Shown one piece after another: positions 1-23,527 of a stretch of 33,598 bases of DNA. The notes beneath the pieces were generated by a model, which saw only the letters and a list, made by a program, of their open reading frames with translations, ran no database searches and was not told where the DNA came from. Position numbers and translations under genes: made by a program. The stretch is taken from positions 1-33,598 of IMG/VR virus record IMGVR_UViG_3300009506_000126; one strand, written 5' to 3'. Source of the DNA: a virus. The stretch's first letter is position 1, and each line of letters opens with the position of its first letter.

Positions 1-2367
1 GAGGTTCCAGGTATCCGTTGGCGCATCGTAGTACCAGACCGTTCGACTGGCGTACTCCTCGCTTGGACCACCACCGGGAATAGGTGTCGAACCGCATTGG
101 AGGGTCGGTTGTGTGCAGTCGAATTGAATCGCAGCGGGCTTGTTCACGCCGCCATTGGCACCGGGCTCGGAGAGCGACTGGACGATGATGAGTTGACGGT
201 CGCTTCCACCATCGAAATCTGTGATGACCGTAACTCCTGCCGCCGTAGTGCCAGAAGCAAGCAGCGTCGTTCCGTCGGCGTCACAGTAGCCATCGGCTGT
301 GCCGACAGGCGTGGTTCCGTCGTCGTCGCAGTTGGTATCTGGACACGTCTGCTGCGTGGAGTCGGCACAATAGTATTGCGTCGTCGCAGCGGGCGAATCG
401 TAGATGTCGTCGCAGTCGACGCGCTGTGGTGCGGCGTTGCTCGCCGTGACGCCGTCCGAGTCGCAGAAGTTGTCAGGACTACCAGAACATTGAACATCCG
501 AGTCGCCGCACGGCCATCCGTTGCGGCTGCTGTAGTTGTCCGCACAGTGCTTGACGTAAGTATCTGCGCACTGCCAGGAGAACCAGACCGTTGACCCGGT
601 CACGTCTGGCGTGGTATCTCCGTCGGCGAAGTATTTGGCGCGGGAGATCCAAAGCTCCTTGTTCAGCTCCACGTCTCCCAGGTGCGTAGTTCCGAGCGTG
701 CGAGGGCCTTCTTCTGGCAGGAAAGGGCCCTGCTGCGGTTCCGACTGGTCCGTGTACGAGAGCAGATTCCACCAGATTTCCGAGCCCGATCCGGTACGCC
801 ATTCCGAGCGCCAGATGGTCGTGTCCCCCCTGACCGTCTTTAGGTTGGTCGGGCCGCATTTGAGATAGCTGGTCTGGACCAGGTCGAAGCACATGAACGT
901 CGTCGCAGCAAGCGAGCGGACCATGATCGTCTGGCCAGCCGACGTTGGCTCTCCGGTGCCCCAATCGAAGTCAAAAATCTGGGTTCCATCGTAGTCGGAG
1001 GTCTCGAAGAAATTGTTACCGCGTACGTCGGGGGTCGCGTCTCCAACAGCAAAGCGCGGAGTGGCCGTGTAGGTCGCCGTACAGCCCCCAGAGCAGTCGT
1101 CCCCGTCCCAGGTATGAACGATGTCGAAGGTCGTCGACCCGAAGTTATGCGCCGCAAATTCGCCGTCGTAATGGGTGCTGCCACGGATGACGAGCGGGAC
1201 GCCGAGCGTCCACGTCGCGGGCGTCTCGTCGCTCGTCCAGGTCTCGGTAATTCCAAACGCACTTTCAGATCGAAAGACGCCGCATGAACCACCGGGGCAG
1301 GATTCGGCGACGTAGGATGAGGTGTCGATCTTGAAGGTGGCGCCTGCCGCAGCAGAGGTGGTGTAGGTGCCGTCGTTGCTCTCGGTTCCCGTAACGACGA
1401 CGGTCTCGCCATTCTGGACGACGTAGTTGCTGATCGTATAGGTGATCGTGGTGAGACCACCACCGCCATCAGCCCAGCCAATGATGGCACCGCCAGCCCA
1501 GATCGCGTTGTTCTCGCCATCGTAGTTGGTGGTCCCCTCGATCACGATCCATTGGCCGGGATCAGGAACCTGGCTTCCACGAGCGATTACGATTCCATCG
1601 GAAACGACGCCGTCCTCAAAGGAATCAATGGTGACGGGTGTGTCGGAAAGGCCGTGCGTTTCCAAAACCGTGACCTGGACGACTCCGTCTCCCACGGTCC
1701 CCTCGGAAAAGGCCGTGATGTCAGCGGGCTCTTTTTCGAGGATGAATTCGTCTTCCAGGATGAGCTGATCGGCGTGGCGGATCGGGCCGGTAATCGTAAC
1801 GTCGCCTGCGATCGGGACGTAGTCTGCGACGGCAGCCGCCAGCTCCGTTGGGTCTACGATACCGCCGACGAAACCCTCCAGCTCTCCGACGGAGTCGATC
1901 GTGCAGTCGATCAGCGATCCGTTGGCGTAGCAGAGATTCTGCGTCGTGACGGTATTGAACTCATAGAGTCCGGTTCCAGAAAGCGTGAGTACGGCGTTGA
2001 TGTCGCTAACATCGGCAAGATTGCAGACCACCTGAGAGCCGTCGCCTCGACAGATGTTGTTGAGCGTGACGAGGCCGACTTGGTCGGGAGTATGAGGTCC
2101 ATCGTCGAGGTTCCAGCTCCCGGCAGCATTCAACTCGATTAGTGTGTCGATGCACGTGCCATCGCCTCCCTGGAGCGCCTTGCTCGGACCGCAGTCCGGG
2201 ATTGGACCCGTGTCGATGAGGCCTCCCAAAGCGGCAGCAAGCAGCACGTCTTCGTTAAAAGCGGTGTGGTTCCAGCCCTGGATATAGCGGTGCCAGGTGT
2301 GCTGTGCCGAAGCAGGCAACGCGAGCAGGCATCCCAGGAGGAGGAGGTAGCGGGCAAATCGGCCCAT
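1..2367 (-). CDS. Signal-peptide-bearing, Cys-rich phage tail-associated protein (truncated at window edge)
   Basis: I read an uninterrupted minus-strand frame of 789 codons from ATG at 2367 to the left edge, so the C-terminus is missing. GGAGGAG sits 5 nt upstream of the ATG, and the gene follows the tail-fibre gene by 11 nt. Residues 1-21 look like a Sec signal peptide: a basic start, a Leu-rich core, then ALPASA before Gln22. Three related beta motifs containing G-T-x-x-Y/N-D-G occur near residues 277, 326 and 396. Around 445-490 and 583-600 lie TPDV-type motifs, and near 715 an ITDFDGG stretch, all resembling beta modules of phage tail proteins. Residues 600-700 are rich in Cys and Asp (CDSDG, CDDDG, CDADG), suggesting disulfides and possibly calcium binding. 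Position suggests a virion or surface-exposed tail accessory. A signal peptide is unusual for such a gene. Function unknown. Confidence 0.8.
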   Translation of the reverse strand, partial: MGRFARYLLLLGCLLALPASAQHTWHRYIQGWNHTAFNEDVLLAAALGGLIDTGPIPDCGPSKALQGGDGTCIDTLIELNAAGSWNLDDGPHTPDQVGLVTLNNICRGDGSQVVCNLADVSDINAVLTLSGTGLYEFNTVTTQNLCYANGSLIDCTIDSVGELEGFVGGIVDPTELAAAVADYVPIAGDVTITGPIRHADQLILEDEFILEKEPADITAFSEGTVGDGVVQVTVLETHGLSDTPVTIDSFEDGVVSDGIVIARGSQVPDPGQWIVIEGTTNYDGENNAIWAGGAIIGWADGGGGLTTITYTISNYVVQNGETVVVTGTESNDGTYTTSAAAGATFKIDTSSYVAESCPGGSCGVFRSESAFGITETWTSDETPATWTLGVPLVIRGSTHYDGEFAAHNFGSTTFDIVHTWDGDDCSGGCTATYTATPRFAVGDATPDVRGNNFFETSDYDGTQIFDFDWGTGEPTSAGQTIMVRSLAATTFMCFDLVQTSYLKCGPTNLKTVRGDTTIWRSEWRTGSGSEIWWNLLSYTDQSEPQQGPFLPEEGPRTLGTTHLGDVELNKELWISRAKYFADGDTTPDVTGSTVWFSWQCADTYVKHCADNYSSRNGWPCGDSDVQCSGSPDNFCDSDGVTASNAAPQRVDCDDIYDSPAATTQYYCADSTQQTCPDTNCDDDGTTPVGTADGYCDADGTTLLASGTTAAGVTVITDFDGGSDRQLIIVQSLSEPGANGGVNKPAAIQFDCTQPTLQCGSTPIPGGGPSEEYASRTVWYYDAPTDTWNL

Positions 2368-2378
2368 GTCTCCTCCGA

Positions 2379-4151
2379 TTATGCGGTGATCTCCGCAAGC
2401 GCTGTGTAGTGGAGTGCGAAGGAGTCCTCTTCCTGAGCAGACGACGTGTTGACCGCATGGGTCACAAAGAAGCCAGAATCGCAGTTGTAGACCGTGGTCA
2501 CAGCGCCCTCGGTCGTGTCATGGACGATCTCGTGCCATTCCGCGTTCGCGGCGCTGGGATTGTAGAAGACCAGCGAGGGCGTTTTATGCATCGGAATTGC
2601 GAATCGCTCATACACGCCAGTAGAGGTCTTGACGGCGCGCTCATGAACGTCGCCCGAGAGCGCCCCGGCGACACCCTGGTTTTGTGCAGGTTGCGTCGTA
2701 TAGGGAAAAGACTTGCGGAAGAAGCGCGTGCATGCAGCCATTTCCTGCTCGAAGCTCGGAGGCTGATAAGGAGCAAGCGCATCGCCTTCGTTGAGATGCA
2801 CCTCCGCGATGTAGAACTTGTCGGTCGACACCGAGAGGTCGAGGTCGTCTACCCAGATCGCGATTGCGATGTTCGTGGCTCCGACCGTGTCGATCGGGAT
2901 GTTGGTGATCTCCTTGGTTGCCCACGTCGTGTCGGTCGAGAACGCTGCTCCGGCTCCTGTCGCGCCATTTTCCCAGGTCCAGCCAGACTGAGCTGTCGGG
3001 CGGGTTCCTTCAATGCCCCAGGCCGTCCCCGAGAAGGGATCCGTAATTGCGTCCGCTGTTCCATTCCAGGCGAGAACACCCGCTTGGAGGTTTCGGACGC
3101 CGCTCGTGGCCTTGTGCTTGAAGCGAATCGAGCAGACCTTGCTTTGGTCATCCGAGAGAAGTGGTGCTGCCCGAACGTTGTCGATCGGGAAGAGAAGACC
3201 GTATTTCTTGGAGCCAGTCGCGGTCACCAGCTCGAAGCAGTGGCTTGCGCCGTTGGGTCGATCCGCCGTGTTCTGGATGACGGTTGCGACGTTGGAAGCG
3301 CCATCGGAAACCAGCATCACGTGGTCGAGACAGAACGCGAAATCGTCGTTTTTAAAGGTCGAGGTCAGGTTGCAAGCCACGCGCTGGTTGATCTTGGCGC
3401 TTCCGTTGATGACAAGGTTTGGTTTGACTGTCGTCTCTTGGGCAGCACTCATGAGCGACCAAACCCCTGCGGAGACGCAGAAATAGACCTCCAGCGAGTC
3501 GGTCGTGAAGTAGATGTCTCCTACCGCCGGAGAACCGGCCTTCCCGGCGTTGAGTCCGTAGCCGATCGCGAGGGCTCCACGTGCTGCGAGCGCAGACGAG
3601 AGCACCAGGAAGGTATCCTTCATAAACGTACTGACGGTGACTTCGGACGGCAGAACGGATCCAGGATCGATCGCGCTGATTTCTCCGTCCGAGGCCCACT
3701 GGAGGATCTTGCTCGCACGGGTCGCCAGATCCGGCATCGTGAGTCCGGTTGGGTTGATCTCGCCAGGGTCGGCCTTGACCGAGCGATTCGAGCCGTCGAT
3801 TGCGTCGAGCAGCATCAGTGCGAGCCGATCGAGCCCCTCTTCGACCGCGCTGGGCAGCATCGTATCCTGGTTCTCCAGGTCTACGACTTGCTGTACGGGC
3901 ATCGCGCGGTAGACGACCCAGTTGGAATCCGCGGTCGTCTCGGCGAGGTTCGTGAGCGTGCCGCCCGAACCGCTACCTCCAACCAAAGTGTAATCGACGC
4001 CCAGCTCCATTGTCGTCGTGACGCCGTTTAGCTCTTCTTCGACGATGATGTCGCTCGTGTTGTAGAACGGAATGACGATGGTCATTTCCGTGAGCGCTGC
4101 AATCGGACCCGGTCCGAAGACCTGGCGAACGGTCTGTTCTGTGACGGTCAT
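2379..4151 (-). CDS. Tail fibre / tail spike-like protein
   Basis: 590 aa. The N-terminal ~120 residues resemble the virion-anchoring domain of T7 gp17-type fibres: residues 79-117 read YRAMP-VQQVVDLENQD-...-AVEEGLDRLALM, matching the common 'R.tp..Q.tdl.nq....e.iE.alDrl' pattern. A middle linker leads to a C-terminal part starting near residue 245 (NLVINGSAKINQR), which resembles the 'NLLINGdf..wQRG' beta-sandwich carbohydrate-binding-like region of phage tail proteins. Near residues 475-490, EMAACTRFFRKSF matches a motif seen late in such fibres. The start ATG at 4151 overlaps the stop of the upstream ejection-protein gene by 4 nt (ATGA), so translation is probably coupled. The likely role is host-surface recognition. 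The receptor cannot be inferred. Confidence 0.85.
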   Translation of the reverse strand: MTVTEQTVRQVFGPGPIAALTEMTIVIPFYNTSDIIVEEELNGVTTTMELGVDYTLVGGSGSGGTLTNLAETTADSNWVVYRAMPVQQVVDLENQDTMLPSAVEEGLDRLALMLLDAIDGSNRSVKADPGEINPTGLTMPDLATRASKILQWASDGEISAIDPGSVLPSEVTVSTFMKDTFLVLSSALAARGALAIGYGLNAGKAGSPAVGDIYFTTDSLEVYFCVSAGVWSLMSAAQETTVKPNLVINGSAKINQRVACNLTSTFKNDDFAFCLDHVMLVSDGASNVATVIQNTADRPNGASHCFELVTATGSKKYGLLFPIDNVRAAPLLSDDQSKVCSIRFKHKATSGVRNLQAGVLAWNGTADAITDPFSGTAWGIEGTRPTAQSGWTWENGATGAGAAFSTDTTWATKEITNIPIDTVGATNIAIAIWVDDLDLSVSTDKFYIAEVHLNEGDALAPYQPPSFEQEMAACTRFFRKSFPYTTQPAQNQGVAGALSGDVHERAVKTSTGVYERFAIPMHKTPSLVFYNPSAANAEWHEIVHDTTEGAVTTVYNCDSGFFVTHAVNTSSAQEEDSFALHYTALAEITA

Positions 4152-7100
4152 CCTGTCACCCCCGCGATGGACTTGAGATAGCGTACCATGCCAGCGATTC
4201 CATCCTCGTCGTTCGCGGCCTTCAGGCCCGCGATGTTCTTCTCCGTGAAGCGCTCGCGAAGAAGCGATTGTTCGAGTGTGGTCAGCGGCTTGGTATCATG
4301 GTGGAAGTCGTGGCGTTCGTTGGCGGTCTCGACGAGCTGGTCGACGCCGCCGTCCTCGAAGGCCATTTCGAGGTAGGTGAACTCGCCAGTCCTCAGCAGG
4401 GCCTCGTTCTCGCCTGCGGAGGGCTCCATTGCCTGGCGCGCACGGCGTCGCGCACGCACGCCAGGAGCGGCCATCTGCTTGATCCCGATTTCGTAGAGTC
4501 GGGTGAGGTAGAAGAGCGAGTAGAGGCTCGTGAGACGCGCGGCTGCGCGAATCTCCCGCTCCCTTACCTGGTCCCAGTTTCCACCGGCTACCTTGGCGAG
4601 TCCTTCGCCAGCGGTTGCGAGGTTGCGGATCGTGCCCATCGAAGGGCCGAGCAGCACGTCCTTCCAGTCGCGGTTGGACCAGATGTACCGATTGTGGCCT
4701 CCGAAGACGAACTGGCCAGGAGAGAGGTCGCCGTTGCTGATGTAACCCAGCGAGGCGTTGATGTCGGGCAGGATGCCGAGCACGCCAGAGCGGTCGACTG
4801 CGGAGAGCAGCAGCTCCTTGGAGCTGCGGATCGTGTAGCCGTACTGGCGGGCCTTCGCCTGAGCGACCATCGCGCCCATCGCGATACCCAGCAGGGTGCC
4901 GTTGAGCGCCTTGGCATCTTTCCACTGAAGCCCGGAGAAAGCCATCGTCTTCGTGGCCGCGTAGGCGAAGCGCTTGAATTGGAAGATCGTGCGCCCGACC
5001 TCGGTGTTGAGAAAGAGTGGCACGTCGCCCGCGTTGGGCGTGATGATCGTGCGGTCGATCTCGCTTCCCAGCGCCATGCGGAAGGCATCTTTGGCCGCGG
5101 CGTTGTTCCAGTTGGGGGTATCGAGGTGCCAGATTCCGTTTGGGAGCTTCTTGCCGTCGATCTGGTGCCAGATTTTCTGGATCACGTCGTGGTTAAATCC
5201 CCAGTAGGCAAGCCGCTCCATCTGGTCCTTGGTCGCGGCCTTGGCGACGTAGGCCTCGATGTCGTTGGCCATGAGCTGGCCGGTGTAGAGCCCCGCCCAG
5301 CGCTTCATCATGTCGTTCCACGGCGAGAGCAGCGAGAGCGCCGCGAAGCGGTCGGCAGCGGCGCGCAGGCCGAGCTGCACGCGGCTCATGCGTGAGTAGT
5401 CGTCCGAGAGGTCGAAGACGTTGGCAGCGCGCTGGTTGAGCAGGGTCTCCCAGGCCGTGCCCGAGAGCCGAGCCTCGGCGAGCAGGCCCTTGCGGACGTT
5501 GGCTGGCGTGGACAGGATGTTGAGCGCGGTGTTGAAGGTGTGCCCGAGCCCGTTGACGGTGACGAGACGGGCCACGTCCGGCACCGAGGAAAGCATGAAG
5601 CCGCCGCCCATCGTGAGGTAGTTAACCATGCGGAAAGATTGGAGGAACTGGTAGGCGCCATGCTCCGGGTTGGCAGGGACAGCGTACTGTCCCCGGAGCA
5701 GATCGCGCAGGTTGGCCAGATCCTCCATATCCTTGTTCGCGCGCTTCTCGAACGCAGAGACGGTGTGGGCGGGATCTCCGCGCGCTTTGCGCTCCTTGAC
5801 CTGCCGGGCAATCTCACGCCGAACGTGGTCGAGCGTGAAGCGCATGTTCGGGTCGCCTTTCCAGCGGCCCGTCTCGGGGTCGACGTTTCCGAAGACCCGT
5901 CCGATCTCGATGTCGGGGACCATCGTGCGAAACAGGAAGCGGGTGACAAGCTGCACGTCGTCTTCCAGCCAGCGCTCGATCTCGAAGTCGTGGAGGTCGA
6001 GCGAGCGCGGGCGGGTGGAGCTGGGCTGGCGGAACTTCATGTACTCGGGCTTCTTGAAGACTTCTGAGAGGCCCGCGATGTCGCGCTCGGGCGTTCGCGC
6101 CGAGGCCGTGCCCATGATCTGGTCGTAGACGCGCTCCGCAGCCTCATAGGCCTCCTTGGGCTGCATGTCGTACTTCTCCTGCCAGCGGTCTGCGACCGTG
6201 CGAATGAAGGCGACGCGCTCCTCGGGCTTAGCGAGCAGGCGTTTCTTGAAGACCCGGCGGAAGTAGCTCTCGCCCGTGGCTTCGCCGCGCTCGTTGAAGA
6301 CCCGCGTGGTGGGATTTCCCTCCGCGTCCACGCGCACGATCGGATCCATGAGGCCGACGTCCTCGGCAGCGGAGAAGAGCGCGTCGTAGCGCTTGCGCGT
6401 CTCGCGCGCGACGCGCTCGACGTGGGGATTCGTGGAGCCCGCCTCGCCGTCGAGCTGGCGGCGCATCGCGCGGCCCACCTCCTCGAAGAACTGGTGCTTG
6501 GTCATGACGCCCTCGGGAGCGCCTCTGAGGCGATCCAAGGCGTCGTACTTGAGCACCTGCGCGTTCAGTCCCTGGTCGGGCTTGAACTTCTTGCCCGCCA
6601 GTTCCATGCGGTACTCGACCCAGCCGCGGTCCTGGATCTCGACGAGCTGTCCGAGCACGCGATTCCACATCTTCATGCCCAGCTCCGCGGAACGGCTCTT
6701 CGCGGTGCCCTCGGCGAATTGGCCCATGCGGAGCTGCATGTCGAGCAGCTTGGGCGCAACCTGGCGGATCAGGCGGACGTGGCTGGTGGCCAGCCGCAGC
6801 GATGGAAACATGAAGCGGACGAGCTTCTCGACGCCCATCGCCGAGACGATCTCGGCCTCGGTGGCCGACACGTCGGGGTTGTAGGCCCCCGTGGTGTCGA
6901 TCTCCTCGGCCTCGCGTGAGACGCCGATGGTGCCGTCGTCCTGGTAGCCACCTGGCACGACATGGCCCTCGTCAAGCAGGTCTTGTTGGGATTTCGTGGA
7001 GCACGGAGACGCGCAGGTGATCGAGCGCTCCAGCCGGAAGCGCACGGGCTCCTTGGCGCGATCGTGTGCGTGCAGCCAGCCCCACGAGACTGCGTCTGGC

Positions 7101-8692
7101 GTCTTTCCCTTTGGGAAGCGCTTGACGCTCGCCTCGATTGGGTCAAATTGCCCCGCTTCGAGCATCTTCGCGAGTTTCTTGGTGTTCTTGAGTACCACGA
7201 TCTCGACCGGGATTACCGGATCGAGGTCATCGGGAAGGGCTCTCAGATGGCCCAGAGAGCCACTGTCCTGAAACGCCACAACCTTCATCTCTGAGGCGAC
7301 GTGTTGCGTGGGCCTATTGGGATTCCTCTCGATCACGTAAAGGCGGATCCTACGGAGTTTCAGGATGCCCTCTTCCGCTGGCGCAAGACGTTGCGCTGTG
7401 CCCTCGGGAAGCATTCCGCGCAGCCGATTCCAGGGAACGAAGGTGGTCGTGTGAGCTGATTCGCCCACCACCTCGCGCTGGTTCTCGATCCAATGCCAGT
7501 TTGGCTGGCTGGAGACGGCCTGCTCGGCCTCGGAGAGCCCGATGATCGGGCGCTTGGGGTCGACGATGGTTCCGTGGCGCGCGGCATCGATGTCGGCGAT
7601 CGTGAGCGGCGCATCAGGATCGTCAGAGGCCCTAAATTCAACCTTGCGCGGTGAAACCGAGTGCTTGAGCTGCGTCGAGTGAAGGCCCATCGGAGAGGGC
7701 TCGATCCCATGGAGCTTTCGCGCGGCTTCTTGCACCTCCTGGATACCAGAAATAAATCGACCTCTTCCACCCTCCTCAAAGATCCAGAAGCCGTCTTGTA
7801 GCTGTAGTGACTCATCTTCTGGATCGAAGAAACGCTCAAAGACGTCGCCGTGAGTTTGCCCACCCGCAAAAACTTCACCCGTTTGTGCATTACGAACAGC
7901 GGGGACCATGGTTCCCGGTTCAGGTTCATCCGCTCTTGCGCGGAGATCCTCGCGGACGTGGAACTGTGGCGTACCGCTCGCGGGCCTTCCGCGTCCGACG
8001 GACTCGCCGTAATACGCCCATGTCTCGGCCTTGAGACGACGCGCGATCGCGAGCGGAACCATCACGCCGCCCACCATCGCGCCAAACAGCGCGCCCGAGA
8101 CGACGTTGGCGCCAGTTTGGATCGGCGTGCGGAGATTCTGGCTCTTCTGCAGGACGGCCTCGGCGGCGAGGTTGCCCACGAAGCCCGCCTGTGCGCCTCG
8201 GCTGAACGTGCGCCAGGCGAGCCGGTTTGCACTGACGTCGAGCAGCGCGCGGGCCGTCTTCGGCGCGGCGGCGCCGACCGGGATCAGGTTCACGGGGTCG
8301 ATCAAGCCCGCGAGCAGGAAGGCCCCCAGCGCATGGGGCGAGCGGTTGACGGTTTGGAGATCCTCCATCTCGCGCTCGACCCGGAGCTTCTTGACCTTCC
8401 AATCCTCGAGATTTGTGACATCGGCGAGAAGCTCGGGGTAGTCCTCGAAGACGGTGCCGCGATTTAGCTCGGGATCGAAGGCGTCGAACTTCGGGTCCGG
8501 GGCATGGCCGGAGAGTGGGAAGCGCATGCGCTCGCGCAGCGCGCCCACGGTGTTCTCCAGCGTGAAGGCCGCTGGAATCACCTCGCCCCAGAAGTCCGGC
8601 TGGTTTTGCCAGAGCCGCCGCTGCACGTCGAGACTGACCTCGCTCTCCGCGAAGCTGTAGATCGAGCGATGGACGGGCTTGACGAAGGGCAT
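4148..8692 (-). CDS. Large internal virion / DNA-ejection protein (T7 gp16-like position)
   Basis: 1514 aa. This is the largest gene of the operon, in the position of T7 internal virion protein D. An early hydrophobic stretch (residues ~108-122, FLLAGLIDPVNLIPVGAA) is characteristic of large podophage ejection proteins. The C-terminal third has the usual helical pattern with TIFQFKRFAYAATKTM and a LGILPDI loop. Such proteins sit in the capsid core and are injected to form a channel across the cell envelope. The start ATG at 8692 overlaps the preceding stop by one base (TGATG). Residues ~264-577 (about 7903-6962) use visibly more A/T-rich codons than either side, which suggests an inserted domain. 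I see no lysozyme or transglycosylase catalytic motif I would trust. Sequence similarity to T7 gp16 itself is not obvious, and the assignment rests on size, order and motifs. Confidence 0.8.
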   Translation of the reverse strand: MPFVKPVHRSIYSFAESEVSLDVQRRLWQNQPDFWGEVIPAAFTLENTVGALRERMRFPLSGHAPDPKFDAFDPELNRGTVFEDYPELLADVTNLEDWKVKKLRVEREMEDLQTVNRSPHALGAFLLAGLIDPVNLIPVGAAAPKTARALLDVSANRLAWRTFSRGAQAGFVGNLAAEAVLQKSQNLRTPIQTGANVVSGALFGAMVGGVMVPLAIARRLKAETWAYYGESVGRGRPASGTPQFHVREDLRARADEPEPGTMVPAVRNAQTGEVFAGGQTHGDVFERFFDPEDESLQLQDGFWIFEEGGRGRFISGIQEVQEAARKLHGIEPSPMGLHSTQLKHSVSPRKVEFRASDDPDAPLTIADIDAARHGTIVDPKRPIIGLSEAEQAVSSQPNWHWIENQREVVGESAHTTTFVPWNRLRGMLPEGTAQRLAPAEEGILKLRRIRLYVIERNPNRPTQHVASEMKVVAFQDSGSLGHLRALPDDLDPVIPVEIVVLKNTKKLAKMLEAGQFDPIEASVKRFPKGKTPDAVSWGWLHAHDRAKEPVRFRLERSITCASPCSTKSQQDLLDEGHVVPGGYQDDGTIGVSREAEEIDTTGAYNPDVSATEAEIVSAMGVEKLVRFMFPSLRLATSHVRLIRQVAPKLLDMQLRMGQFAEGTAKSRSAELGMKMWNRVLGQLVEIQDRGWVEYRMELAGKKFKPDQGLNAQVLKYDALDRLRGAPEGVMTKHQFFEEVGRAMRRQLDGEAGSTNPHVERVARETRKRYDALFSAAEDVGLMDPIVRVDAEGNPTTRVFNERGEATGESYFRRVFKKRLLAKPEERVAFIRTVADRWQEKYDMQPKEAYEAAERVYDQIMGTASARTPERDIAGLSEVFKKPEYMKFRQPSSTRPRSLDLHDFEIERWLEDDVQLVTRFLFRTMVPDIEIGRVFGNVDPETGRWKGDPNMRFTLDHVRREIARQVKERKARGDPAHTVSAFEKRANKDMEDLANLRDLLRGQYAVPANPEHGAYQFLQSFRMVNYLTMGGGFMLSSVPDVARLVTVNGLGHTFNTALNILSTPANVRKGLLAEARLSGTAWETLLNQRAANVFDLSDDYSRMSRVQLGLRAAADRFAALSLLSPWNDMMKRWAGLYTGQLMANDIEAYVAKAATKDQMERLAYWGFNHDVIQKIWHQIDGKKLPNGIWHLDTPNWNNAAAKDAFRMALGSEIDRTIITPNAGDVPLFLNTEVGRTIFQFKRFAYAATKTMAFSGLQWKDAKALNGTLLGIAMGAMVAQAKARQYGYTIRSSKELLLSAVDRSGVLGILPDINASLGYISNGDLSPGQFVFGGHNRYIWSNRDWKDVLLGPSMGTIRNLATAGEGLAKVAGGNWDQVREREIRAAARLTSLYSLFYLTRLYEIGIKQMAAPGVRARRRARQAMEPSAGENEALLRTGEFTYLEMAFEDGGVDQLVETANERHDFHHDTKPLTTLEQSLLRERFTEKNIAGLKAANDEDGIAGMVRYLKSIAGVTG

Positions 8693-12002: not shown

Positions 12003-12442
12003 CAGGAGATCCTCGACATCATCACGTGGTCTGCGGCGTCCGGGCCGTAGCGCGGCAGGAAGCCGTCGACCGCAAACCCCAGGTGGGAGAGAAAGGCGAT
12101 CCCGCGGTTGAAGGTCGCCGGAACCGTGGCCTGGAGCCGCCAGAACTCGAAATTCCTGCACGCCAGTTGCAAGAGCTGCATCGCCCCTGCGGTCAGCGTG
12201 ATGGGGTAGCGTGGCGCGCGCTCGTCCACGTAGCCGAAGAGATGGCCAACACCCTTCCAGAGCGGCAACACGCCGAACACCGCGAGTGGCGTGCCGCGAT
12301 GGAGGATTGTTCGGGCATGCACTCCCAGCCATTCCCCGCGTGGGAGTTGCGTTTCTGGATCGGTGCTGGCCATCCACTCCGGTAGACGGATCGCAGAGAG
12401 GTCTTCGAAGCTGGCCTCGCGAATGCTTACCTTGTGCTCCAT
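12002..12442 (-). CDS. GNAT-like phage protein, T7 gp13 / DUF2833-type
   Basis: 146 aa. It has the compact layout of an acyltransferase-like (GNAT) fold: an N-terminal strand with charged residues, then LAVFGVLPLWKGVGHLFGYVD, then LQLACRNFEFWRLQATVP, and an end FNRGIAFLSHLGFAVDGFLPRYGPDAADHVMMSRIS. In GNATs the last part is the 'A....LGF...g....~g....~~~~r' region. Phage gp13-type (DUF2833) proteins have this fold and stand immediately before the internal virion genes, exactly as here. In T7, gp13 is needed for virion morphogenesis. Whether this one acetylates anything is unknown. Its start (12442) overlaps the end of the tail tubular B gene by 16 nt. Confidence 0.75.
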   Translation of the reverse strand: MEHKVSIREASFEDLSAIRLPEWMASTDPETQLPRGEWLGVHARTILHRGTPLAVFGVLPLWKGVGHLFGYVDERAPRYPITLTAGAMQLLQLACRNFEFWRLQATVPATFNRGIAFLSHLGFAVDGFLPRYGPDAADHVMMSRIS

Positions 12443-15063
12443 TCCACCCTCGCCACCAGGCCGATCACATCGAGTGGGACTGGCTTGTCAGAGGCCACGT
12501 AGTAGCTCTGATCCGTGTCGATTCCGAGGTCCGCATGAACGTCCACGTCGAGCGTTCGGAGCGGAACCGGAAGCTCGGCGAGATCGGAGATCCTGCGGAG
12601 GTTAATCGTCTTGAGCGTTTCGAGCGATTTGCCGATCTGCACGTAGTTCGTGCGGTGGAGTCGTAGGTGGTTCTCGACGATCCGCTTGGTGCGTCCAATG
12701 AGTGTACCACCCGGCGCTCCCGTCTCCTCGATCGGAAGGGTGTGGATGTAGGCGATGAAATTCAGGCCTACCCGGACCTTGCTCGCCGCGTAGGGAAGCG
12801 TCACCGAGCCGCCCGAGACCGTGAGCGGGCCGATCCAGGAGCCATCGGCAATCGCATAGACGGCCTCGTTTTCCAGGTGATCGAGGCCCGAGAAGTTGGT
12901 CTCGGGAATCCCGTCATAGATGACTGGCGAGGCATCGAGGAAGGCCGCGTCTTCGAGTGCAGCGTCGGTGTAGAAGGGTTCTTCGAGAAACTCGACGTAG
13001 CGCCGGAGCTGGCCGTTTACGGTCCGCTCGACTACCAGCCAGAGCTGGTCGTAGGCGCGGCTGTCGTCCTTGACCACGGCTGCGGAGCGGACCTTGGCGC
13101 CGGTTCCACCCATCGTATGGGCGTGCCAACCGAGCACGCGCTGGGTGCGCTCGTAGGTGATTCCAACGAGCAGGCCGTCGTTGCGGACGCCCCAGATGAT
13201 CGAGTTGGGCTCCTCCGCGTAGGCGAGCTGCACGAAAGGCTTTTCGGTCAGATGGGAGGCGAGGATCGAGAGGTCTTGGGGCACGAAAGCGTCGCGCTCG
13301 AAGTCGAAGCCGATCGCGAGCAGCTTGTGGCCGCTCGCGCTGGAGTAGACGATCTCGTCCGAGACCCGGACGGGCTTGACGAGCGCGGAGCCGAGCACCG
13401 CGGAGGGTCGCGAGTTGATGTTCTCGGGAGAGATCGCTTCGAGCAGCGAGGTGGCCTGGATCGGCCAGATGGCGCCGGTCGTGCCGACAATGAGCTGTCT
13501 AACGGCAGCGATCCACGCCATCCGGTCGATCTGGCCCGAGCCGAGCGTATAGTCGATCGCCGCGGCCTGCGTGACCACGCGCGAGTTGTCGGTAGCCTCA
13601 TCGACGCCGACATCGGGACCAAAATCCGTGAACAGGCCGATCTGGGAGCCCCAGATCGTGTTGGGAAGCGCGGGCGTCGAGGCGAGCCAGAGCCGTTGCT
13701 CGTGGATCGCGCAGTAGCGGGGATAGTTCCCCGTGTAGAAGGCGCCCCAGCGAAAGACCCATTGTTTCGCGTCGCCGATCCATCCGCGATGGACCTGGAC
13801 GTTGGCGGTATTGGCATCGGCGATGTTGTCGAGGATGCCCCAGGCCCAGATCGGGCTCCCGTTGGCGTCGAGGCCATCTCGATAGCGGAAGCGCCGCAGC
13901 GTGTCGCGGTCGCTATCGAAGAAGGCGCCGTCCATCGCGATCTGGTCATCCGAGTAGCCGACGATCGAGTGGACGCCCGTGCCGCGGTCCGTGAAGTTGA
14001 TCGGAATGCCGTCGTTCGCGGTGGCGTTGAGATGGAACTGGTGGTCGTTGATCCGCTGAATGAAATAGAAGGTCGAGAGAGAGATTCCGGTTGGCTGCGT
14101 GCCAGTGGTCTGGACCTCGATCGGGCCCTCGCCATCCTCGTAGCCGTGGTTGGGAATCGTGATCGAATCCGCAGGGCCCTCCGTCTCCGACGTCTTTGCC
14201 ACATCGCCAGGGTAGAAGTCGCGTGGCGCGCTCTCCGTGACAGCGGGGTCGTTGGTCGGGTCCATGAGCTGGGAGACCTTGGTGTTGATCTCCTCCCAGG
14301 GACCGTCCTTGAAGAACACGGGGATGATGCGGAAGCTGTCCGCAGCCCAGCGTTCGAGCTGCATGGGCGGGTGGTTCTCATGGGTGATGTAGAGAACGTC
14401 CCCCGATTGGCAGAAATCCAGCTCCCAGACCTCGTCGATCGTGTACGGCGCATCGACGGCCTGGATCACGGAGGCGTCCGGGGCGATGTGGTGGTACTCG
14501 CCTGCCGCGAGCGTGCCACCATCGGAAATCGACACCACAGCGCCGCCAGGCGTCGTCGAGAGCCCAAAGCTCGCGGGCCCGGCGCTGGCTGCGGCGAGCA
14601 CGATGTAGTAGTCCGTCGTGTCGTCCCAGCCCGTGGGCAGCGTGCCGTCCGACCACACGCGGTAGGGACCGGAGCCGTCCCGGTAGTAGTGGGGTCCGGT
14701 CAAGCCCACGGTCTCGTTGGTCGTGTCGACCCGTGAGTCGTCGAAGTCGTTTGAGGGCGGAATGACCCAGCCGCCCGACGCAGAGGGCGTGAAGAATCGG
14801 ATGATTCCCTCTCCAAACTCGAAGACGTAGGACTGTAGATTCGAGAAGATGAAGGGGATCAGGCGGCTGTTGTGCGACTCGTCTGCAACGGTGGTGATGT
14901 AGCGGCTACCCGCGCGCTTGACGACCGGACCGACGGTCGTTGGGACCATGTTTCGGCAGGAAAGCAGCGCGTGGCGGTAGGGAGTGGTATCCGAGCGCCC
15001 TGCGGCAAGCGGGCTGATCTCCCCGCTGTTGAAGGAGTTTTGAATCAGGTGCGCTTGCGGCAT
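12427..15063 (-). CDS. Tail tubular protein B (nozzle), T7 gp12-like
   Basis: 878 aa. The N-terminus is diagnostic: residues 9-52 contain NSFNSGEISPLAAGRSD, the YRHALLSCRNMVPTTVGPV stretch and the KRAGSRYI motif, matching the podophage nozzle pattern 'nFn.GElSP.l..R.D...Y..g...c.N......G...rR.Gt'. It forms the tail tube end through which DNA leaves. Two copies of a small beta module are inserted near residues 111-193 and 296-368; both have 'GP..V.(S/T)(D/T)GT.PTG.....T.YYI/FYFI' features. The start ATG at 15063 overlaps the TTPA stop by one base. Length is somewhat above T7 gp12 (about 790 aa), consistent with the inserted modules. Confidence 0.92.
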   Translation of the reverse strand: MPQAHLIQNSFNSGEISPLAAGRSDTTPYRHALLSCRNMVPTTVGPVVKRAGSRYITTVADESHNSRLIPFIFSNLQSYVFEFGEGIIRFFTPSASGGWVIPPSNDFDDSRVDTTNETVGLTGPHYYRDGSGPYRVWSDGTLPTGWDDTTDYYIVLAAASAGPASFGLSTTPGGAVVSISDGGTLAAGEYHHIAPDASVIQAVDAPYTIDEVWELDFCQSGDVLYITHENHPPMQLERWAADSFRIIPVFFKDGPWEEINTKVSQLMDPTNDPAVTESAPRDFYPGDVAKTSETEGPADSITIPNHGYEDGEGPIEVQTTGTQPTGISLSTFYFIQRINDHQFHLNATANDGIPINFTDRGTGVHSIVGYSDDQIAMDGAFFDSDRDTLRRFRYRDGLDANGSPIWAWGILDNIADANTANVQVHRGWIGDAKQWVFRWGAFYTGNYPRYCAIHEQRLWLASTPALPNTIWGSQIGLFTDFGPDVGVDEATDNSRVVTQAAAIDYTLGSGQIDRMAWIAAVRQLIVGTTGAIWPIQATSLLEAISPENINSRPSAVLGSALVKPVRVSDEIVYSSASGHKLLAIGFDFERDAFVPQDLSILASHLTEKPFVQLAYAEEPNSIIWGVRNDGLLVGITYERTQRVLGWHAHTMGGTGAKVRSAAVVKDDSRAYDQLWLVVERTVNGQLRRYVEFLEEPFYTDAALEDAAFLDASPVIYDGIPETNFSGLDHLENEAVYAIADGSWIGPLTVSGGSVTLPYAASKVRVGLNFIAYIHTLPIEETGAPGGTLIGRTKRIVENHLRLHRTNYVQIGKSLETLKTINLRRISDLAELPVPLRTLDVDVHADLGIDTDQSYYVASDKPVPLDVIGLVARVEWSTR
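13960..14733 (-). repeat. Duplicated beta module inside tail tubular protein B
   Basis: Two protein-level repeats separated by about 100 residues. Copy 1 (residues ~111-193) contains GPYRVWSDGTLPTGWDDTTDYYIV, written here in parts: GPYRVWSDGTLPTG then TTDYYIV. Copy 2 (residues ~296-368) contains GPIEVQTTGTQPTG then STFYFIQ. Each is preceded by a 'tGPHYY / PNHGYEDGEG' loop. Similar modules are common in phage tail proteins as decorative beta domains. Confidence 0.6.
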
Positions 15064-15650
15064 CAGCGAACATTAATCCACGAGGAGCTTTGGATTCGCT
15101 TGGGACTGCCTTCCTGTCCGTCCGAACCGCGCGCGCTCGTGATCGCTTCACGGTAGAGGTCGAACATGGCTTGCTTGAGATTTGCTGCCTTGACGAGCGG
15201 TTCGGTCCAGGCCAGGGCGAGCCGCAGGGCGAGCGCGTTGACCAGCTCCGCGTCGTAGCGGCTGACCGTGACGTTTCGGAAGATGTACCGGATCTCCAGC
15301 GGCGAGGAGAGATCGGTGACGATCGTGTTCTCCTCGACCTGCCAGAGCCAGCCCTCGCCACCTCCAACGCCCGCCTGCTCGCCGTTGACTTCGAGCACCC
15401 GCAGGCAGTCGTTTGGAATCTGGTAGGCGAAGTCGAAGCCCCACTCGGGAGCCGTCGCATTGGCGGGAATCGAGGCGCGCCGTGTCGCACAATTCCAGGG
15501 ATGGGCGCGAAGAACCTCATCGCGAATCTCGTTGTAGCTCGTCCGAGCGAGTAGACCCTCGCGGGTGTCCTCGTCGAAGCTTGAAATCGAGTTCGCGCCG
15601 AGATGAGTCGTGAGCGCGATATTGCAGATGTCGACGGCTGTATTCGCCAT
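15063..15650 (-). CDS. Tail tubular protein A (gatekeeper/adaptor), T7 gp11-like
   Basis: 195 aa. The opening MANTAVDICNIALTTHLGA, followed by ISSFDEDTREGLLARTSYNEIRDEVLRAHPWN, is the classic tail tubular A / head-completion adaptor signature ('d..N.AL..lG...I.sf.e.~~~a~~~~~~y~~~rd~~L~~~pWnfA~rra'). Further on, FDFAYQIPNDCLRVLEV and the late ALRLALAWTEPLVKAANLKQAMFDLYREA helix also fit. The protein forms a ring below the portal and joins the tail nozzle. Its TGA overlaps the TTPB start. The upstream 78-nt gap contains a hairpin, and the Shine-Dalgarno is weak. Confidence 0.9.
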   Translation of the reverse strand: MANTAVDICNIALTTHLGANSISSFDEDTREGLLARTSYNEIRDEVLRAHPWNCATRRASIPANATAPEWGFDFAYQIPNDCLRVLEVNGEQAGVGGGEGWLWQVEENTIVTDLSSPLEIRYIFRNVTVSRYDAELVNALALRLALAWTEPLVKAANLKQAMFDLYREAITSARGSDGQEGSPKRIQSSSWINVR

Positions 15651-16300: not shown

Positions 16301-16744
16301 CTACTCGATCAGAAAAAGATCGGCTGTGATGTCGAAGCTCGTGCTTGCTCCGGTGATGGTGAAGTTCACAGAGAAACTCTGCGGCAGCGGAAACTCACAA
16401 ACGACGTCGATCTGCTCTGATGCGCTCGCACCAGGCAAACCGAAGACCAGGATCGAGGTCGTCTCGGTCGTGATCCCTGGAAGCAGACAGAGGCGCTCTT
16501 CCTCTGCTCCATCCATGAGATTGACCGAGACGCCGAGACTCGAAACGCCAACCTCATTGGCGGTTGTGACGACCAGGTAGCCGCGCGTGTAGCGATCGTT
16601 TCCGATCGCTCCACTCTGGTTTGCCGCAGCGTCGGTAACGGTCGTATCGGTGAGAAGGTTGATCTTCTTCCAGTCCGCATGAGCGGAAGTCGGAAAGAGG
16701 AACGCGGCCAGGAGCAGCCACGATGCCAAGGTGGATTTTCGCAT
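16301..16744 (-). CDS. Small signal-peptide-bearing protein within the virion gene block
   Basis: 147 aa. Residues 1-23 look like a Sec signal peptide: MRKS, a hydrophobic WLLLAAFLF core and a TSAHA cleavage site before Asp24. The mature part is beta-type, rich in Thr, Val and Ser (LLTDTTVTDAAANQSGA; RGYLVVTTANEVGV), with two cysteines (CLLPG, VVCEF) that could form a disulfide after export. It is embedded between the two paralogous decoration-like genes and has GAGG 6 nt before the ATG. No family recognised. Possible roles are a periplasmic or outer-membrane protein made late in infection (for example exclusion of further phage) or an unusual exported virion component. Both are inference. 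Confidence 0.75.
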   Translation of the reverse strand: MRKSTLASWLLLAAFLFPTSAHADWKKINLLTDTTVTDAAANQSGAIGNDRYTRGYLVVTTANEVGVSSLGVSVNLMDGAEEERLCLLPGITTETTSILVFGLPGASASEQIDVVCEFPLPQSFSVNFTITGASTSFDITADLFLIE

Positions 16745-17441: not shown

Positions 17442-18311
17442 TTACGTCTCGTCGTGCTTGACGCGCACCACGCCGTAGGGGTCCATGCGAGTTGCGCCAA
17501 TTCGCATCTCGTAGAACACCTGCGTCGAGTAGCGCTTCGTCGGCAGGCGGTCGATCTCGCCACGGGGGTTGATCCCAATGGCGAGCTTCATCGAGTCGCG
17601 TTGCCACGCGAAGCTGTCTCGCACGTCGTTGCCGTCGATCGCGCCACGCTCGCCACGAATGAACGTGAAGCCCAGCAGGGTGTTGACTTGACCAGCGACG
17701 AGCGCCCGGACGCTGTTGTAGTCGATGCTCTTCACCTCGTTTTGGTTGAGCAGGGACTCGATCCCGCTCGCGGAGGTGTAGAAGAACCGGTCGTCCTCCG
17801 GCACTTCCGCCTGGTCGAGTCGGCGCTTGGCCTCGATGACCTGCTCGATCTGGAGATTGAGCGGACCCGCGACCACCGCGACCTCCCGGTCTGCCGGGAA
17901 GGGCTCGGTGCCGGTGCCAGTCTGGCCCGTTGCCGCCGTGGCTGCGAAGGCTTCGAGGATGACATCGTCCATCGTACGCCCTGCGGCCATTGCGAACGCC
18001 TGCGTGTAGGCGTTGGTCGGGTCGTTGAGCACCTGGACCTTGTCGTCCGAATCGACGAGGTCGGCTACGTCCCATGACTCCAGCGTCACCATGCGCCGCG
18101 TGTGCGGCGTGTCGGTGTACTCGGTGTCGCCGTGGCGACTCGTGCGCTTGCTCATCGTGGTCGCGTTGAGCTGGTCGTAGTAGGCCCGGTCGCCGACGAC
18201 GCTTGGATCTACGCTGACCGCTCCCCGCAGCCGCGACATCTTCTGTTGTGCGAGATGCGTGATTCCGTCCGTGAATTGCTGGACGAAATGCTGGTCTACT
18301 GTTGCGGACAT
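17442..18311 (-). CDS. Major capsid protein
   Basis: 289 aa. It matches the pattern of the podophage-type capsid family (Phage_capsid_2-like, HK97 fold expected). It begins MSATVDQHFVQQFTDGITHLAQ then QKMSRLRGAVSVDPSVVGDRAYYDQL, followed by a TPHTRRMVTLESWDVADLVDSDDK segment and FAMAAGRTMDDVILEAFAATAATG ('a..R..Dd.ii.a..g.a.tG'). The C-terminal part has FYTSASGIESLLN and the final DPYGVVRVKHDET. It is preceded by scaffold and 125-aa genes and followed by the hairpin at 17392. The Shine-Dalgarno GGAGGGG is 8 nt before the ATG and is partly inside a hairpin (18319-18353). Confidence 0.92.
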   Translation of the reverse strand: MSATVDQHFVQQFTDGITHLAQQKMSRLRGAVSVDPSVVGDRAYYDQLNATTMSKRTSRHGDTEYTDTPHTRRMVTLESWDVADLVDSDDKVQVLNDPTNAYTQAFAMAAGRTMDDVILEAFAATAATGQTGTGTEPFPADREVAVVAGPLNLQIEQVIEAKRRLDQAEVPEDDRFFYTSASGIESLLNQNEVKSIDYNSVRALVAGQVNTLLGFTFIRGERGAIDGNDVRDSFAWQRDSMKLAIGINPRGEIDRLPTKRYSTQVFYEMRIGATRMDPYGVVRVKHDET

Positions 18312-19989: not shown

Positions 19990-21627
19990 TCAGGCTGCTT
20001 GCGACATAAGTTGTGCCACGTTCACGCCGACATCGCCAGCGGCCTTGGCCATTTGCGCGGCTTCGTCCATCTGTTGCGCGGCTGCGGCCTGCTGCGCGCG
20101 TGCGCTGCGAAGCGCGTCACGGTCGCGGTCCGAGCGCAGAATCCCGATCGGAGCGCCGCGGGCCTCGTGGATGATCTTGAGACTGGCGTCGGGATCGAGT
20201 CCGTCGATGATCTGCGGGACGCCCATCTCGGCAATCGCCGCTGCGCTCTGCCAGACCTCCATCGTGGCGCGTGCCTCGGGGAGCCGTTGGCTGCGGAGCA
20301 CTGGGCTGTTGTACTGGATCTCGAAGTCGCGGCCCTGCAGGATGCGCGGTACGGGCGGGAGCTTGCGCTGGCGCAGCATGATGTAGAACTGGCGCTGGAC
20401 CATCGGATCGAGCAGCTCGACCTTGAGCCGCGAAAGCATCGGTGCCATCATGCGCTGCGCTTCCGCTGACAATTCAAGCACTTGCGTCGCCGTCATGCGC
20501 GGGTCGCGGAAGAGCTGCATGAGGGTGGCAAAGAAGGTCTCGCGCACGCTCTGACGCACGTCGTTGATGATCTCTTGCGTGATCGGGAAGATCGTGCCGG
20601 TCGGAAGCGTCCCGATTGGGTTGCCGCGCGAGCGGATCATCAGGTCCTCACGGACGATATTGACCGATCCCGGCGAGGTCACGATCTGGGTCAGCACGCC
20701 ATCGTCGGGCGAGGTGAGCGGCGGGTCCGCGGCCTTCTGGCCCATCGCGAGTACCGTCCGCATCATCTCGTTGAGCATCATGCCATCCGAGAGCGCGGTC
20801 ATGCCGGGGCCGCGCCCGTAGGTCTCTCCGGCCTCTCGGCTCCAGCGCGCGACGTGGATCGGCAGCTCGAAGTAGCCGCCTTCCGAGAGGATCTCGTTGT
20901 CTTCGAGCATCACGTAGACGCTGCGCCAGGGCTTCCGGGAAGAAGGGAGAAGGCCCGGCTGGGTGCTCGGATCGTCGACGCGGTGGACGAGGTGGACGAA
21001 GTTGAACTTCTCTCCCGGCGATCTGGCGACCGCCTCGTTGAGCTTGCGGCTCCTGGTGACGTGGTTCGACCCCTCGCCCCAGGCGAGCGCGGCCTGGCGC
21101 GCGGAGAACTCGAACGAGCGCGCGACCACGTCGACCACGCCCAGGTGGTTCTCCTCGAAGTAGATCTCCTGAAGCGGACGCGCCGAGAAGTGGGTGTAGT
21201 CGCCCATGTCGACGGTCATCATCGCGGAGGTGCCGAAACCCCCGATGTCGTAGAAGATTTCGGCCATGTTGACCGAGAAGCTCGCCTTGGGGAGCGCGAA
21301 GGCCCGGCGCATGCGCTTGGTGACTTCCTCGAACCACTCGATCGAGTCGCGGTCCTCGCGCAGCTCGTCGTCGGCGGGAACCACCGAGAACCACGGGGTC
21401 GAGGGGTCGGCGAGGAGGCCCTGGAGTCCGCCCGCGAGCTGGACGTTGGCCTGCTTCGCGGTCGTATCGAGGATGTCGACCGTGCGCCGCCGCGGTGACG
21501 ACCGGGTCGTGAAGTCCCGGCGTCCGAAGAGGTTGTCCGCGCAGGCCTGCCACTCGCTCTCGAACCAGGAGCGGTCGCCGGTCATCGAGTCGAATCGGTC
21601 GAGCACGTCCTTGGCGGTTTCGAGCAT
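19990..21627 (-). CDS. Portal (head-to-tail connector) protein
   Basis: 545 aa. This is the podophage connector family (T7 gp8-type, Head-tail_con). The N-terminus has RSWFESEWQACADNLFGRRDF and DTTAKQANVQLAGGLQGLLADPSTPWF, matching 'l.R..w..~w.ei...~~P.r.....~~~~ds~g~~a~~~LaagL.~~L~~P~~~WF'. Mid-protein motifs include SFSVNMAEIFYDIGGFGTSAM and the GRGPGMTALSDGMMLNEMMRT stretch ('yGrgpg..al.d...LN.~'). The C-terminus is Ala/Gln-rich helical (QQAAAAQQMDEAAQMAK). It forms the dodecameric packaging and ejection ring. The start ATG at 21627 follows the previous stop by 1 nt. Confidence 0.93.
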   Translation of the reverse strand: MLETAKDVLDRFDSMTGDRSWFESEWQACADNLFGRRDFTTRSSPRRRTVDILDTTAKQANVQLAGGLQGLLADPSTPWFSVVPADDELREDRDSIEWFEEVTKRMRRAFALPKASFSVNMAEIFYDIGGFGTSAMMTVDMGDYTHFSARPLQEIYFEENHLGVVDVVARSFEFSARQAALAWGEGSNHVTRSRKLNEAVARSPGEKFNFVHLVHRVDDPSTQPGLLPSSRKPWRSVYVMLEDNEILSEGGYFELPIHVARWSREAGETYGRGPGMTALSDGMMLNEMMRTVLAMGQKAADPPLTSPDDGVLTQIVTSPGSVNIVREDLMIRSRGNPIGTLPTGTIFPITQEIINDVRQSVRETFFATLMQLFRDPRMTATQVLELSAEAQRMMAPMLSRLKVELLDPMVQRQFYIMLRQRKLPPVPRILQGRDFEIQYNSPVLRSQRLPEARATMEVWQSAAAIAEMGVPQIIDGLDPDASLKIIHEARGAPIGILRSDRDRDALRSARAQQAAAAQQMDEAAQMAKAAGDVGVNVAQLMSQAA

Positions 21628-22093: not shown

Positions 22094-23527
22094 TTAGTGC
22101 CTGGAGGAGAGCCCGTAGGGGTCGAGCACATTGTAGGAGACGGCGCGGCCCTGTTGCAATCGCGTCGGTTCGGTGCGGAATCCCCGGACCATCATGGCGC
22201 CGATCCGAGTCGCATCCAGCAGGTCGTCGAACTTGGGGACGATCAAACCTTCCTTGCGATGGTAGGTCCGATACTCCTCGAACCAGGCGTGACAGTGGGC
22301 GAAGACGCGAAAGCGGCCCGATCCCATTCGCTCGTCGAGCATGATGATGCCCGGCTCCACGTTGTAGCCGCCATCCGGGAAGGTCGCGTGCTCGGTGTAC
22401 ATTCGCACGCCCTTCTGGCGATAGAGGTCCGCGTAGCTCTCTCCTGAGCCATCCCGCTTGTAGGCGTCGTGGGGATAGAAGCAGGGAATCCAGTCGGGCC
22501 GCATTCGGATCGCGTCCGCGTGGATCGCGACGCGCACGTCGTCGTTCTTGTAGGTGTCGGTCAGGTAGAGGACGTCGCTGTCGCGGTCGTGGGCCAGGAA
22601 GGCGACTGCCGTGGGATGATCGCCGTAGCCGAGGTCCATGCCATTTCCACGCGCGAAGTGGGCGGGGATCTCGAAGGGCTCGCAGGCCAGCTCCGATTCG
22701 AGGTGCGTAAAGACGCGCCCCGAGCCGAGCATCGGCACGCCTTTGGTGCGCGCTTCCCGCTCGTGGGGCGGGTAGTTCTGGATGATCTCAGCGCGGCGCG
22801 ACTCCGGGATGTGGTGGGCCTCGTCAATCGACATCATCACCCACCAGCGCTGCTCGCTCGTGGGCTCCGGGTAGAAGAGCCGGACGACCTCGCTCATGCC
22901 TTCGAGTGGTGTGAAGGTGATGATGATGTGGCCCGCGGTGTTGGTGACACGCGCCAGGCACGCGGTGTGGATCTTGGCGGGCGGCTCCTCATCGAGCCAG
23001 ATGAAGTCGATCTCGTCGGACTCGAAGGTGCCGAGCTTCATTTCGTAGCTCTTGAAGACGAGCCGGGAGATGTCGCCGCTGACGTGCTTGATGAGCACGT
23101 AGTCGACCAGGCCAGAGATGGCACGGTTCATGACGGGCCTCTCGGCGATCGCGTCCTTCGGGATCATGCCGGTTCCCCAGTTGGGCTCCTCGCCGAGCAG
23201 CATCACCTGGACGCGCTCGCGGGTGGCCTTGTTGGAGACGCCCGAGGCCCAACAGCGGATACCCGTCTCGTAGCGGTGGCCCTCCCACCAGGGCGGGTAG
23301 CGCCCGGTCAGGTGGCACTGGGTCTCGAAGCCGCCCGCGTAGGTCTTGCCGAGCTGGTTTCCGGCCATGAAGAGCCGGAAGCGCTTGTGGGCCCCCATCT
23401 GGTGGAAGAGGAGTTGCTTTTCGTGGGGGTTATAGGTCTTCGCTTTCTGGAACTGGAGATCCCGAATCGAGCGCGCGGCTTCGCGGAGCGCGTCGATCCC
23501 CCGATGCGGGTCCAGGTTCAATCCCAC
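22094..23527 (-). CDS. Terminase large subunit
   Basis: 477 aa from GTG at 23527 (GAGGGG 13 nt upstream). The open frame extends further upstream, but that part reads as antisense-like Ser/Arg sequence inside terS. ATPase motifs: Walker A AGNQLGKT (residues 55-62), Walker B FIWLDEE (175-181) and the coupling ITFTPLEG (about 203-210). Nuclease acidic residues are visible: Asp298 in GMDLGYGDHPTA, Asp354 in YPHDAY, and Asp434/435/438 in KFDDLLDATRIG. The PY.pheKQ..FH opening is of T7/Terminase_6 style. It cuts concatemers and pumps DNA into procapsids through the portal. It overlaps terS by 98 nt, unusually long. A TTG two codons later is an alternative start. Confidence 0.93.
   Translation of the reverse strand: MGLNLDPHRGIDALREAARSIRDLQFQKAKTYNPHEKQLLFHQMGAHKRFRLFMAGNQLGKTYAGGFETQCHLTGRYPPWWEGHRYETGIRCWASGVSNKATRERVQVMLLGEEPNWGTGMIPKDAIAERPVMNRAISGLVDYVLIKHVSGDISRLVFKSYEMKLGTFESDEIDFIWLDEEPPAKIHTACLARVTNTAGHIIITFTPLEGMSEVVRLFYPEPTSEQRWWVMMSIDEAHHIPESRRAEIIQNYPPHEREARTKGVPMLGSGRVFTHLESELACEPFEIPAHFARGNGMDLGYGDHPTAVAFLAHDRDSDVLYLTDTYKNDDVRVAIHADAIRMRPDWIPCFYPHDAYKRDGSGESYADLYRQKGVRMYTEHATFPDGGYNVEPGIIMLDERMGSGRFRVFAHCHAWFEEYRTYHRKEGLIVPKFDDLLDATRIGAMMVRGFRTEPTRLQQGRAVSYNVLDPYGLSSRH

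Follow-up and report, generated by a model that had tools for sequence, protein, structure and literature searches.

It is, to our knowledge, generally taken that tailed phages assemble wholly in the cytoplasm. The locus described here therefore raises a simple question: is the product of a gene that directly follows a tail fibre gene, and that opens with an apparent Sec signal peptide, exported from the cell, and if so, what becomes of it? The window, by which we mean the whole stretch of DNA analysed, is a 33,598-bp podovirus record from IMG/VR in which the packaging, capsid, and tail genes all lie on the minus strand (Table 1), and the relatives of its nozzle protein include those of Pelagibacter phages, BcepC6B, BPP-1, and spring-water phages. 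Our main reading, to which we assign a probability of roughly 0.6, is that the protein in question, P0001, is an accessory fibre or receptor-binding-type protein of this podovirus, putatively exported by Sec and stabilised by disulfides.

P0001 carries a predicted signal peptide and paired cysteines

The P0001 reading frame extends on the minus strand through 789 codons without a stop, and because it runs off the record, which comprises the window only, the C-terminus of the protein is not recoverable. Translation would begin at an ATG (positions 2367-2365) with a strong Shine-Dalgarno sequence upstream, and only 11 nt separate this start from the stop of the anchored tail fibre gene, so the place in the operon that had been assigned to P0001 from the sequence alone, directly after the fibre, is correct.

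Table 1. Features of P0001 and of the structural and packaging genes in the window
Feature	Position	Strand	Remarks
Cys-rich fibre-slot protein with predicted Sec signal peptide (P0001)	1..2367	-	at least 789 aa; truncated at the 3' end
Densest Cys region of P0001, residues 600-695	283..570	-	CDxDG at 635, 680, 695
Signal peptide codons of P0001, residues 1-21	2305..2367	-	predicted SPase I cleavage between ALPASA and Q
Shine-Dalgarno GGAGGA	2371..2376	-	3 nt ahead of ATG
Tail fibre (P0002)	2379..4151	-	anchor-type N-terminus phrog_1640, fibre C-terminus phrog_4492
Internal virion protein	4148..8692	-	phrog_342
Tail nozzle/tubular B type protein	12427..15063	-	phrog_376
Tail tubular A type protein	15063..15650	-	phrog_394
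Small signal-peptide protein P0014, 147 aa, 2 Cys	16301..16744	-	MRKSTLASWLLLAAFLFPTSAHA, then DWK
Major capsid protein	17442..18311	-	phrog_3437
Portal / head-tail adaptor	19990..21627	-	phrog_332
Terminase large subunit	22094..23692	-	

The N-terminus of P0001, MGRFARYLLLLGCLLALPASA followed by QHTW, contains two arginines, an uncharged hydrophobic core, and the residues A-S-A ahead of the glutamine, and thus unites the features of a Sec/SPase I substrate: a positive n-region, a hydrophobic core, an A-X-A site, and a real start codon. Signal peptides were called with a custom rule-based caller, not SignalP; it scores this N-terminus as a signal peptide, and it also called 55 of 20,000 shuffles of the same N-terminus, 3 of 5,154 internal pseudo-N-termini from seven proteins of the window, and 57 of 1885 real first-start genes versus 2 of 1885 shuffled ones. 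Besides the signal-peptide core, there is no second membrane-like 19-mer in the whole translated part. In a lipobox-like stretch, LLGC, the cysteine is residue 13, which lies within the core and has only about six hydrophobic residues ahead of it, and the predicted site after ALPASA appears to fit SPase I better than an SPase II lipobox. The clean signal peptide noted in the sequence-only reading therefore holds as a textbook pattern. Hydrophobic N-termini are not unheard of in virion proteins, and as P0001 lies inside a structural operon, its own could instead be a fibre-assembly or membrane-insertion element that is kept in the virion and is no export signal; the succession of n-, h-, and c-regions ending in an A-X-A site argues against this, as do two further observations given below.

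The cysteine content of P0001 (25 residues, 3.2%) exceeds that of eight other structural and packaging proteins of the window (0-1.5%), and the 24 cysteines of the mature part can be grouped into 12 close successive pairs (p=2e-5 versus uniform placement, p=5e-4 with the gaps permuted). The disulfide-style region proposed earlier is thus borne out, and the CDxDG-type acidic motifs that accompanied the proposal lie inside it. Cysteine pairs alone are no proof of export, because disulfides are reported from the virion of Agrobacterium phage Milano.

Searches with P0001 found no homologue in PHROGs, Pfam, NCBIfam, PDB sequences, phage records, or viral contigs; tblastn against phage genomes gave no match, and no Pfam family, thus no Ail_Lom, was hit up to an E value of 0.1. 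An AlphaFold model of P0001 alone was uninformative (mean pLDDT 33.5), and neither the searches nor the model lend support to the tail-type beta modules that had been suggested. P0003 and P0006, each used alone as a query, gave no matches in viral contigs.

P0001 is one of two signal-peptide proteins in the structural operon, the other being P0014, whose gene lies before tail tubular A, between it and the capsid gene. GC3 is 0.715 for P0001, 0.729 for the tail fibre, and 0.696 for P0014, versus 0.82-0.88 in the six other genes measured, as if these three had been exchanged or were evolving apart. A slot comparable to that of P0014 holds signal-bearing fibre-type genes in L283 and L307, where they precede tail tubular/nozzle-type genes. 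Elsewhere in the window, the place of an internal virion protein at 8692-11502 (minus strand) is taken by a 936-aa protein with no PHROG or Pfam match and no cysteine.

The absence of homologues and the low GC3 of P0001 would both be accounted for if it were a surface protein of host or moron origin that was acquired behind the tail genes and has no fibre-like role, and its CDxDG motifs are similar to those that bind metal in secreted proteins of bacteria. However, the adjoining tail fibre has an equally low GC3, the 11-nt gap places both genes in one operon, and the same slot holds signal-bearing fibre-type proteins in other phages, and we consider such a capture unlikely.

The slot after the tail fibre in other phages

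Six related records include two in which a signal-peptide gene directly follows the fibre, BcepC6B (gp19, L002) and MW202898 (L005, 917 aa), and a third, MW202510 (L003), in which the signal is on the last gene of the tail module. The gene after the fibre has none in five more nozzle and internal virion protein (IVP) relatives (L223-L227), and across the nozzle, IVP, and fibre relatives in annotated records, a signal-peptide gene is present in the slot in 3 of 11 and absent in 8 of 11. L222, reached by another route, also has no such gene in the slot. In PBR31, orf35 directly follows a spike gene, and its signal was read by eye. Among 80 marine-type nozzle loci, many of which end before the fibre, the caller flagged none of the genes downstream of the nozzle; 14 marine relatives could be read past the fibre, and the following gene, present in 13, had a signal peptide in none under strict and in one (L181) under relaxed calling. 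A signal on the gene behind the fibre is accordingly rejected as a general rule, since it is lacking in 8 of 11 annotated relatives and in at least 12 of the 13 marine relatives with a following gene.

Farther downstream, L181 and L184 encode signal-peptide proteins of 420 and 404 aa. In the tail regions of these two marine podovirus loci lies a look-alike gene pair whose products, of about 200 and 410 aa, have signal-like N-termini (L181, 2963-4839, reverse complement; L184, 5712-7446).

Signal peptides recur on fibre-type proteins of unrelated phages

The new part of this work is comparative, namely that predicted signal peptides recur on tail-fibre-type proteins of unrelated phages. Both gp19 and orf35 carry no anchor and match phrog_11393, 'tail fiber protein', in its C-terminal part, while the anchored fibre of Klebsiella phage KpV74 has its best match to phrog_11393 in addition to the T7 anchor PF03906, and similar C-termini are found in Pectobacterium, Klebsiella, and Dickeya fibres. 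These matches show that fibre tip domains occur behind a virion anchor or, in other phages, behind a predicted signal peptide. The exchange of anchor for signal in turn suggests a loss of direct virion attachment. Another case is provided by L015, which has a signal peptide, and L082, an 832-aa spike without one: their last 173 aa are 90% identical, and a tip therefore appears to have moved between two kinds of head.

A scan of viral contigs with gp19 and orf35, from which 80 loci were kept, yielded 77 loci with a tip gene, 31 with a strictly called signal peptide, 44 with none, and 2 open (40 with a signal if later starts are allowed, 41 with L015), proportions that favour signal-bearing members because one of the two search patterns lies in the signal peptide itself. 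An unbiased test used the motif P[IVP][QG]LLNP[ATV]G, positioned behind the signal. It is present in 31 distinct viral genes, 30 of them called as signal-bearing and the last, L311, judged so by eye; in the 30 called genes, the signal stands at a constant offset, 21-26 residues before the mature motif, which is hard to reconcile with an N-terminus kept in the virion. The number of cysteines after the motif is even in 28 of the 31 genes, two of these having zero. A longer form of the motif retrieved 13 genes from prokaryote genomes (Paraburkholderia, Caballeronia, Cupriavidus, and Burkholderia), 11 called and 2 judged by eye to have a signal. Two homologues without a signal, L065 and L070, start close to the mature N-terminus with in-frame stops upstream, have 1 and 0 cysteines, respectively, and occupy the slot after a fibre or spike gene. 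The fibre-repeat family to which the MW202898 protein belongs is poorer in signals; among its 77 loci, 76 of which have a match, 5 carry a signal peptide, 69 do not, and 2 are open at the 5' end.

Four tail clusters contain two signal-bearing fibre- or spike-type genes each (L015, 4523-6906; L016, 3446-6401; L056, 2528-5480; L306, 2467-9137), and several of these pairs adjoin small proteins of 74-102 aa, some with WVNAAGV-like ends.

P0001 itself has no mature-part or tip homology to the gp19/orf35 family and no PHROG match, and its available part, which lacks the C-terminus, has no match to a recognisable fibre or tip domain. Because of this absence of sequence similarity and the missing C-terminus, P0001 belongs with these proteins by architecture and position only, and would be a member, in architecture but not in sequence, of a recurrent class that is apparently undescribed, no description of signal-bearing fibre-type proteins as a class having been found in searches of an open-access library.

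Cysteines accompany the signal in two families

Signal-bearing members carry more, and mostly paired, cysteines than their signal-less relatives in two families. In the tip family, 37 signal-bearing proteins have a mean of 3.0 cysteines (0.82%) versus 0.96 (0.23%) in 27 without, a set that includes L015, which really has a signal; two or more cysteines are found in the shared tip of 19 of 39 signal-bearing but only 2 of 28 signal-less members (Fisher p=3.7e-4). The medians in the fibre-repeat family are 0.68% for 7 signal-bearing proteins, L242 being counted among them by eye, versus 0.18% for 58 others (p=6.5e-5). These comparisons are not corrected for kinship, and a corrected test on independent pairs had 4 supported pairs only, too few to be informative. 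On the best tree, the signal label is only weakly clustered, as it requires 18 changes versus a mean of 21.6 for shuffled labels; well-supported branches force 4 changes. The enrichment of cysteines in signal-bearing members is, together with the constant offset, a further point against a hydrophobic N-terminus retained in the virion, which we regard as quite improbable.

The pairing is also apparent in the alignment, where columns 159 and 244 (6 rows), 145 and 258 (3 rows), and 111 and 123 (3 rows) hold cysteines together, in signal-bearing proteins throughout. A model of L076, built with 43 rows, shows the tip as a confident beta domain of nine strands (pLDDT 86-98 from residue 191), and its strand order fits a jelly roll. 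Foldseek matched it to cyanophage tail and short-tail-fibre domains, BxpB/ExsFA, BC2L-C, and C1q-domain viral proteins (C1q/TNF-like), with modest TM-scores, the highest among the 50 PDB matches listed being 0.57 (normalised by target). Judged from strand order, not coordinates, the columns 159/244 and 145/258 would lie on neighbouring strands.

The fate of the exported protein

We consider that P0001 is probably exported, because of the signal itself, the paired cysteines, and the recurrence of signals on fibre-type proteins of other phages, and the export proposed in the sequence-only reading is backed by the same three grounds. More broadly, the data suggest that fibre-like proteins of the receptor-binding type are exported from the cell by some phages, which would then not rely on internal assembly only. 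Nascent P0001 would be taken by Sec and cut after ALPASA, and the mature protein would fold in the periplasm with disulfides. Once lysis has opened the inner membrane, it could come into contact with virions and provide them with an additional distal binding element.

A different end for the same export would be that of an envelope-resident exclusion factor or decoy, in which a fibre-type protein blocks receptors on the infected cell or on its debris but is never part of a virion. The replacement of the virion anchor by a signal peptide with the tip domain kept fits such a role, and a precedent exists in lambda, where lom, located between the spike gene J and the side fibres, encodes an exported outer-membrane protein expressed in lysogens, as described in PMC12309495. 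G017 has a 582-aa spike-like gene without a signal besides its signal-bearing fibre, as probably does G023 with a 295-aa fibre-like gene (both read from N-termini), and the signal-bearing protein is therefore not needed as the only binding protein. An earlier idea, that signal-bearing fibres are the sole binding proteins of their phage, was dropped on these two cases. Against a decoy, the targets of fibre tips lie on the outside of the cell, and the signal-less homologues L065 and L070 in the same slot are not explained by an envelope role.

On balance, we lean slightly, and tentatively, towards the virion at lysis as the destination, over a decoy or exclusion role in the envelope or lysate, which we take to be a real possibility. 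Among the roles offered in the sequence-only reading, namely a surface shield or superinfection exclusion, receptor modification, and a tail accessory with an unusual export route, the last would be at least as likely as exclusion. The wider proposal that some tailed phages make a part of the virion outside the cytoplasm, as a Sec-exported receptor-binding tip that folds with disulfides in the periplasm and is added to the particle when lysis mixes the compartments, with tips moving between virion-anchored and signal-bearing heads, is speculative, and we regard it as rather doubtful at present. If true, a recurrent class of fibre-type proteins with cleavable export signals and paired cysteines would imply that assembly has a second compartment or else that phages widely make a surface decoy, and both readings are directly testable in the cultured phages BcepC6B and PBR31.

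Comparison with known systems

Lambda Lom resembles P0001 in being an exported phage protein that has a signal peptide and whose gene lies among those for tail spike and fibres; Lom is an outer-membrane beta-barrel, and P0001 has no Pfam match. Bordetella phage BPP-1, a nozzle relative of the window, holds Mtd, annotated as a receptor-binding protein, in the corresponding slot after the tail fibre gene bbp9; Mtd differs in having no signal peptide, and it is part of a diversity-generating system. The 'caprin-2 domain protein' of MW202898 (P0011, 917 aa), from another nozzle relative, is comparable in that it is large, has a signal peptide, which starts at residue 12 of the annotated ORF, and directly follows a short anchor-type tail fibre gene, whereas its fibre repeats, BclA_C/C1q-like end, and 5 mature cysteines set it apart from P0001, to which no sequence similarity was found. 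Gp19 of Burkholderia phage BcepC6B and orf35 of Xanthomonas phage PBR31, now annotated simply as tail fibre or structural protein, share with P0001 the position after a fibre or spike, a Sec-type signal, and the lack of a virion-anchor domain, but they are smaller (357 and 269 aa), have few cysteines, and have in common a mature N-terminus, LNPAGSTSGQAI, and a fibre tip that distinguish them from P0001.
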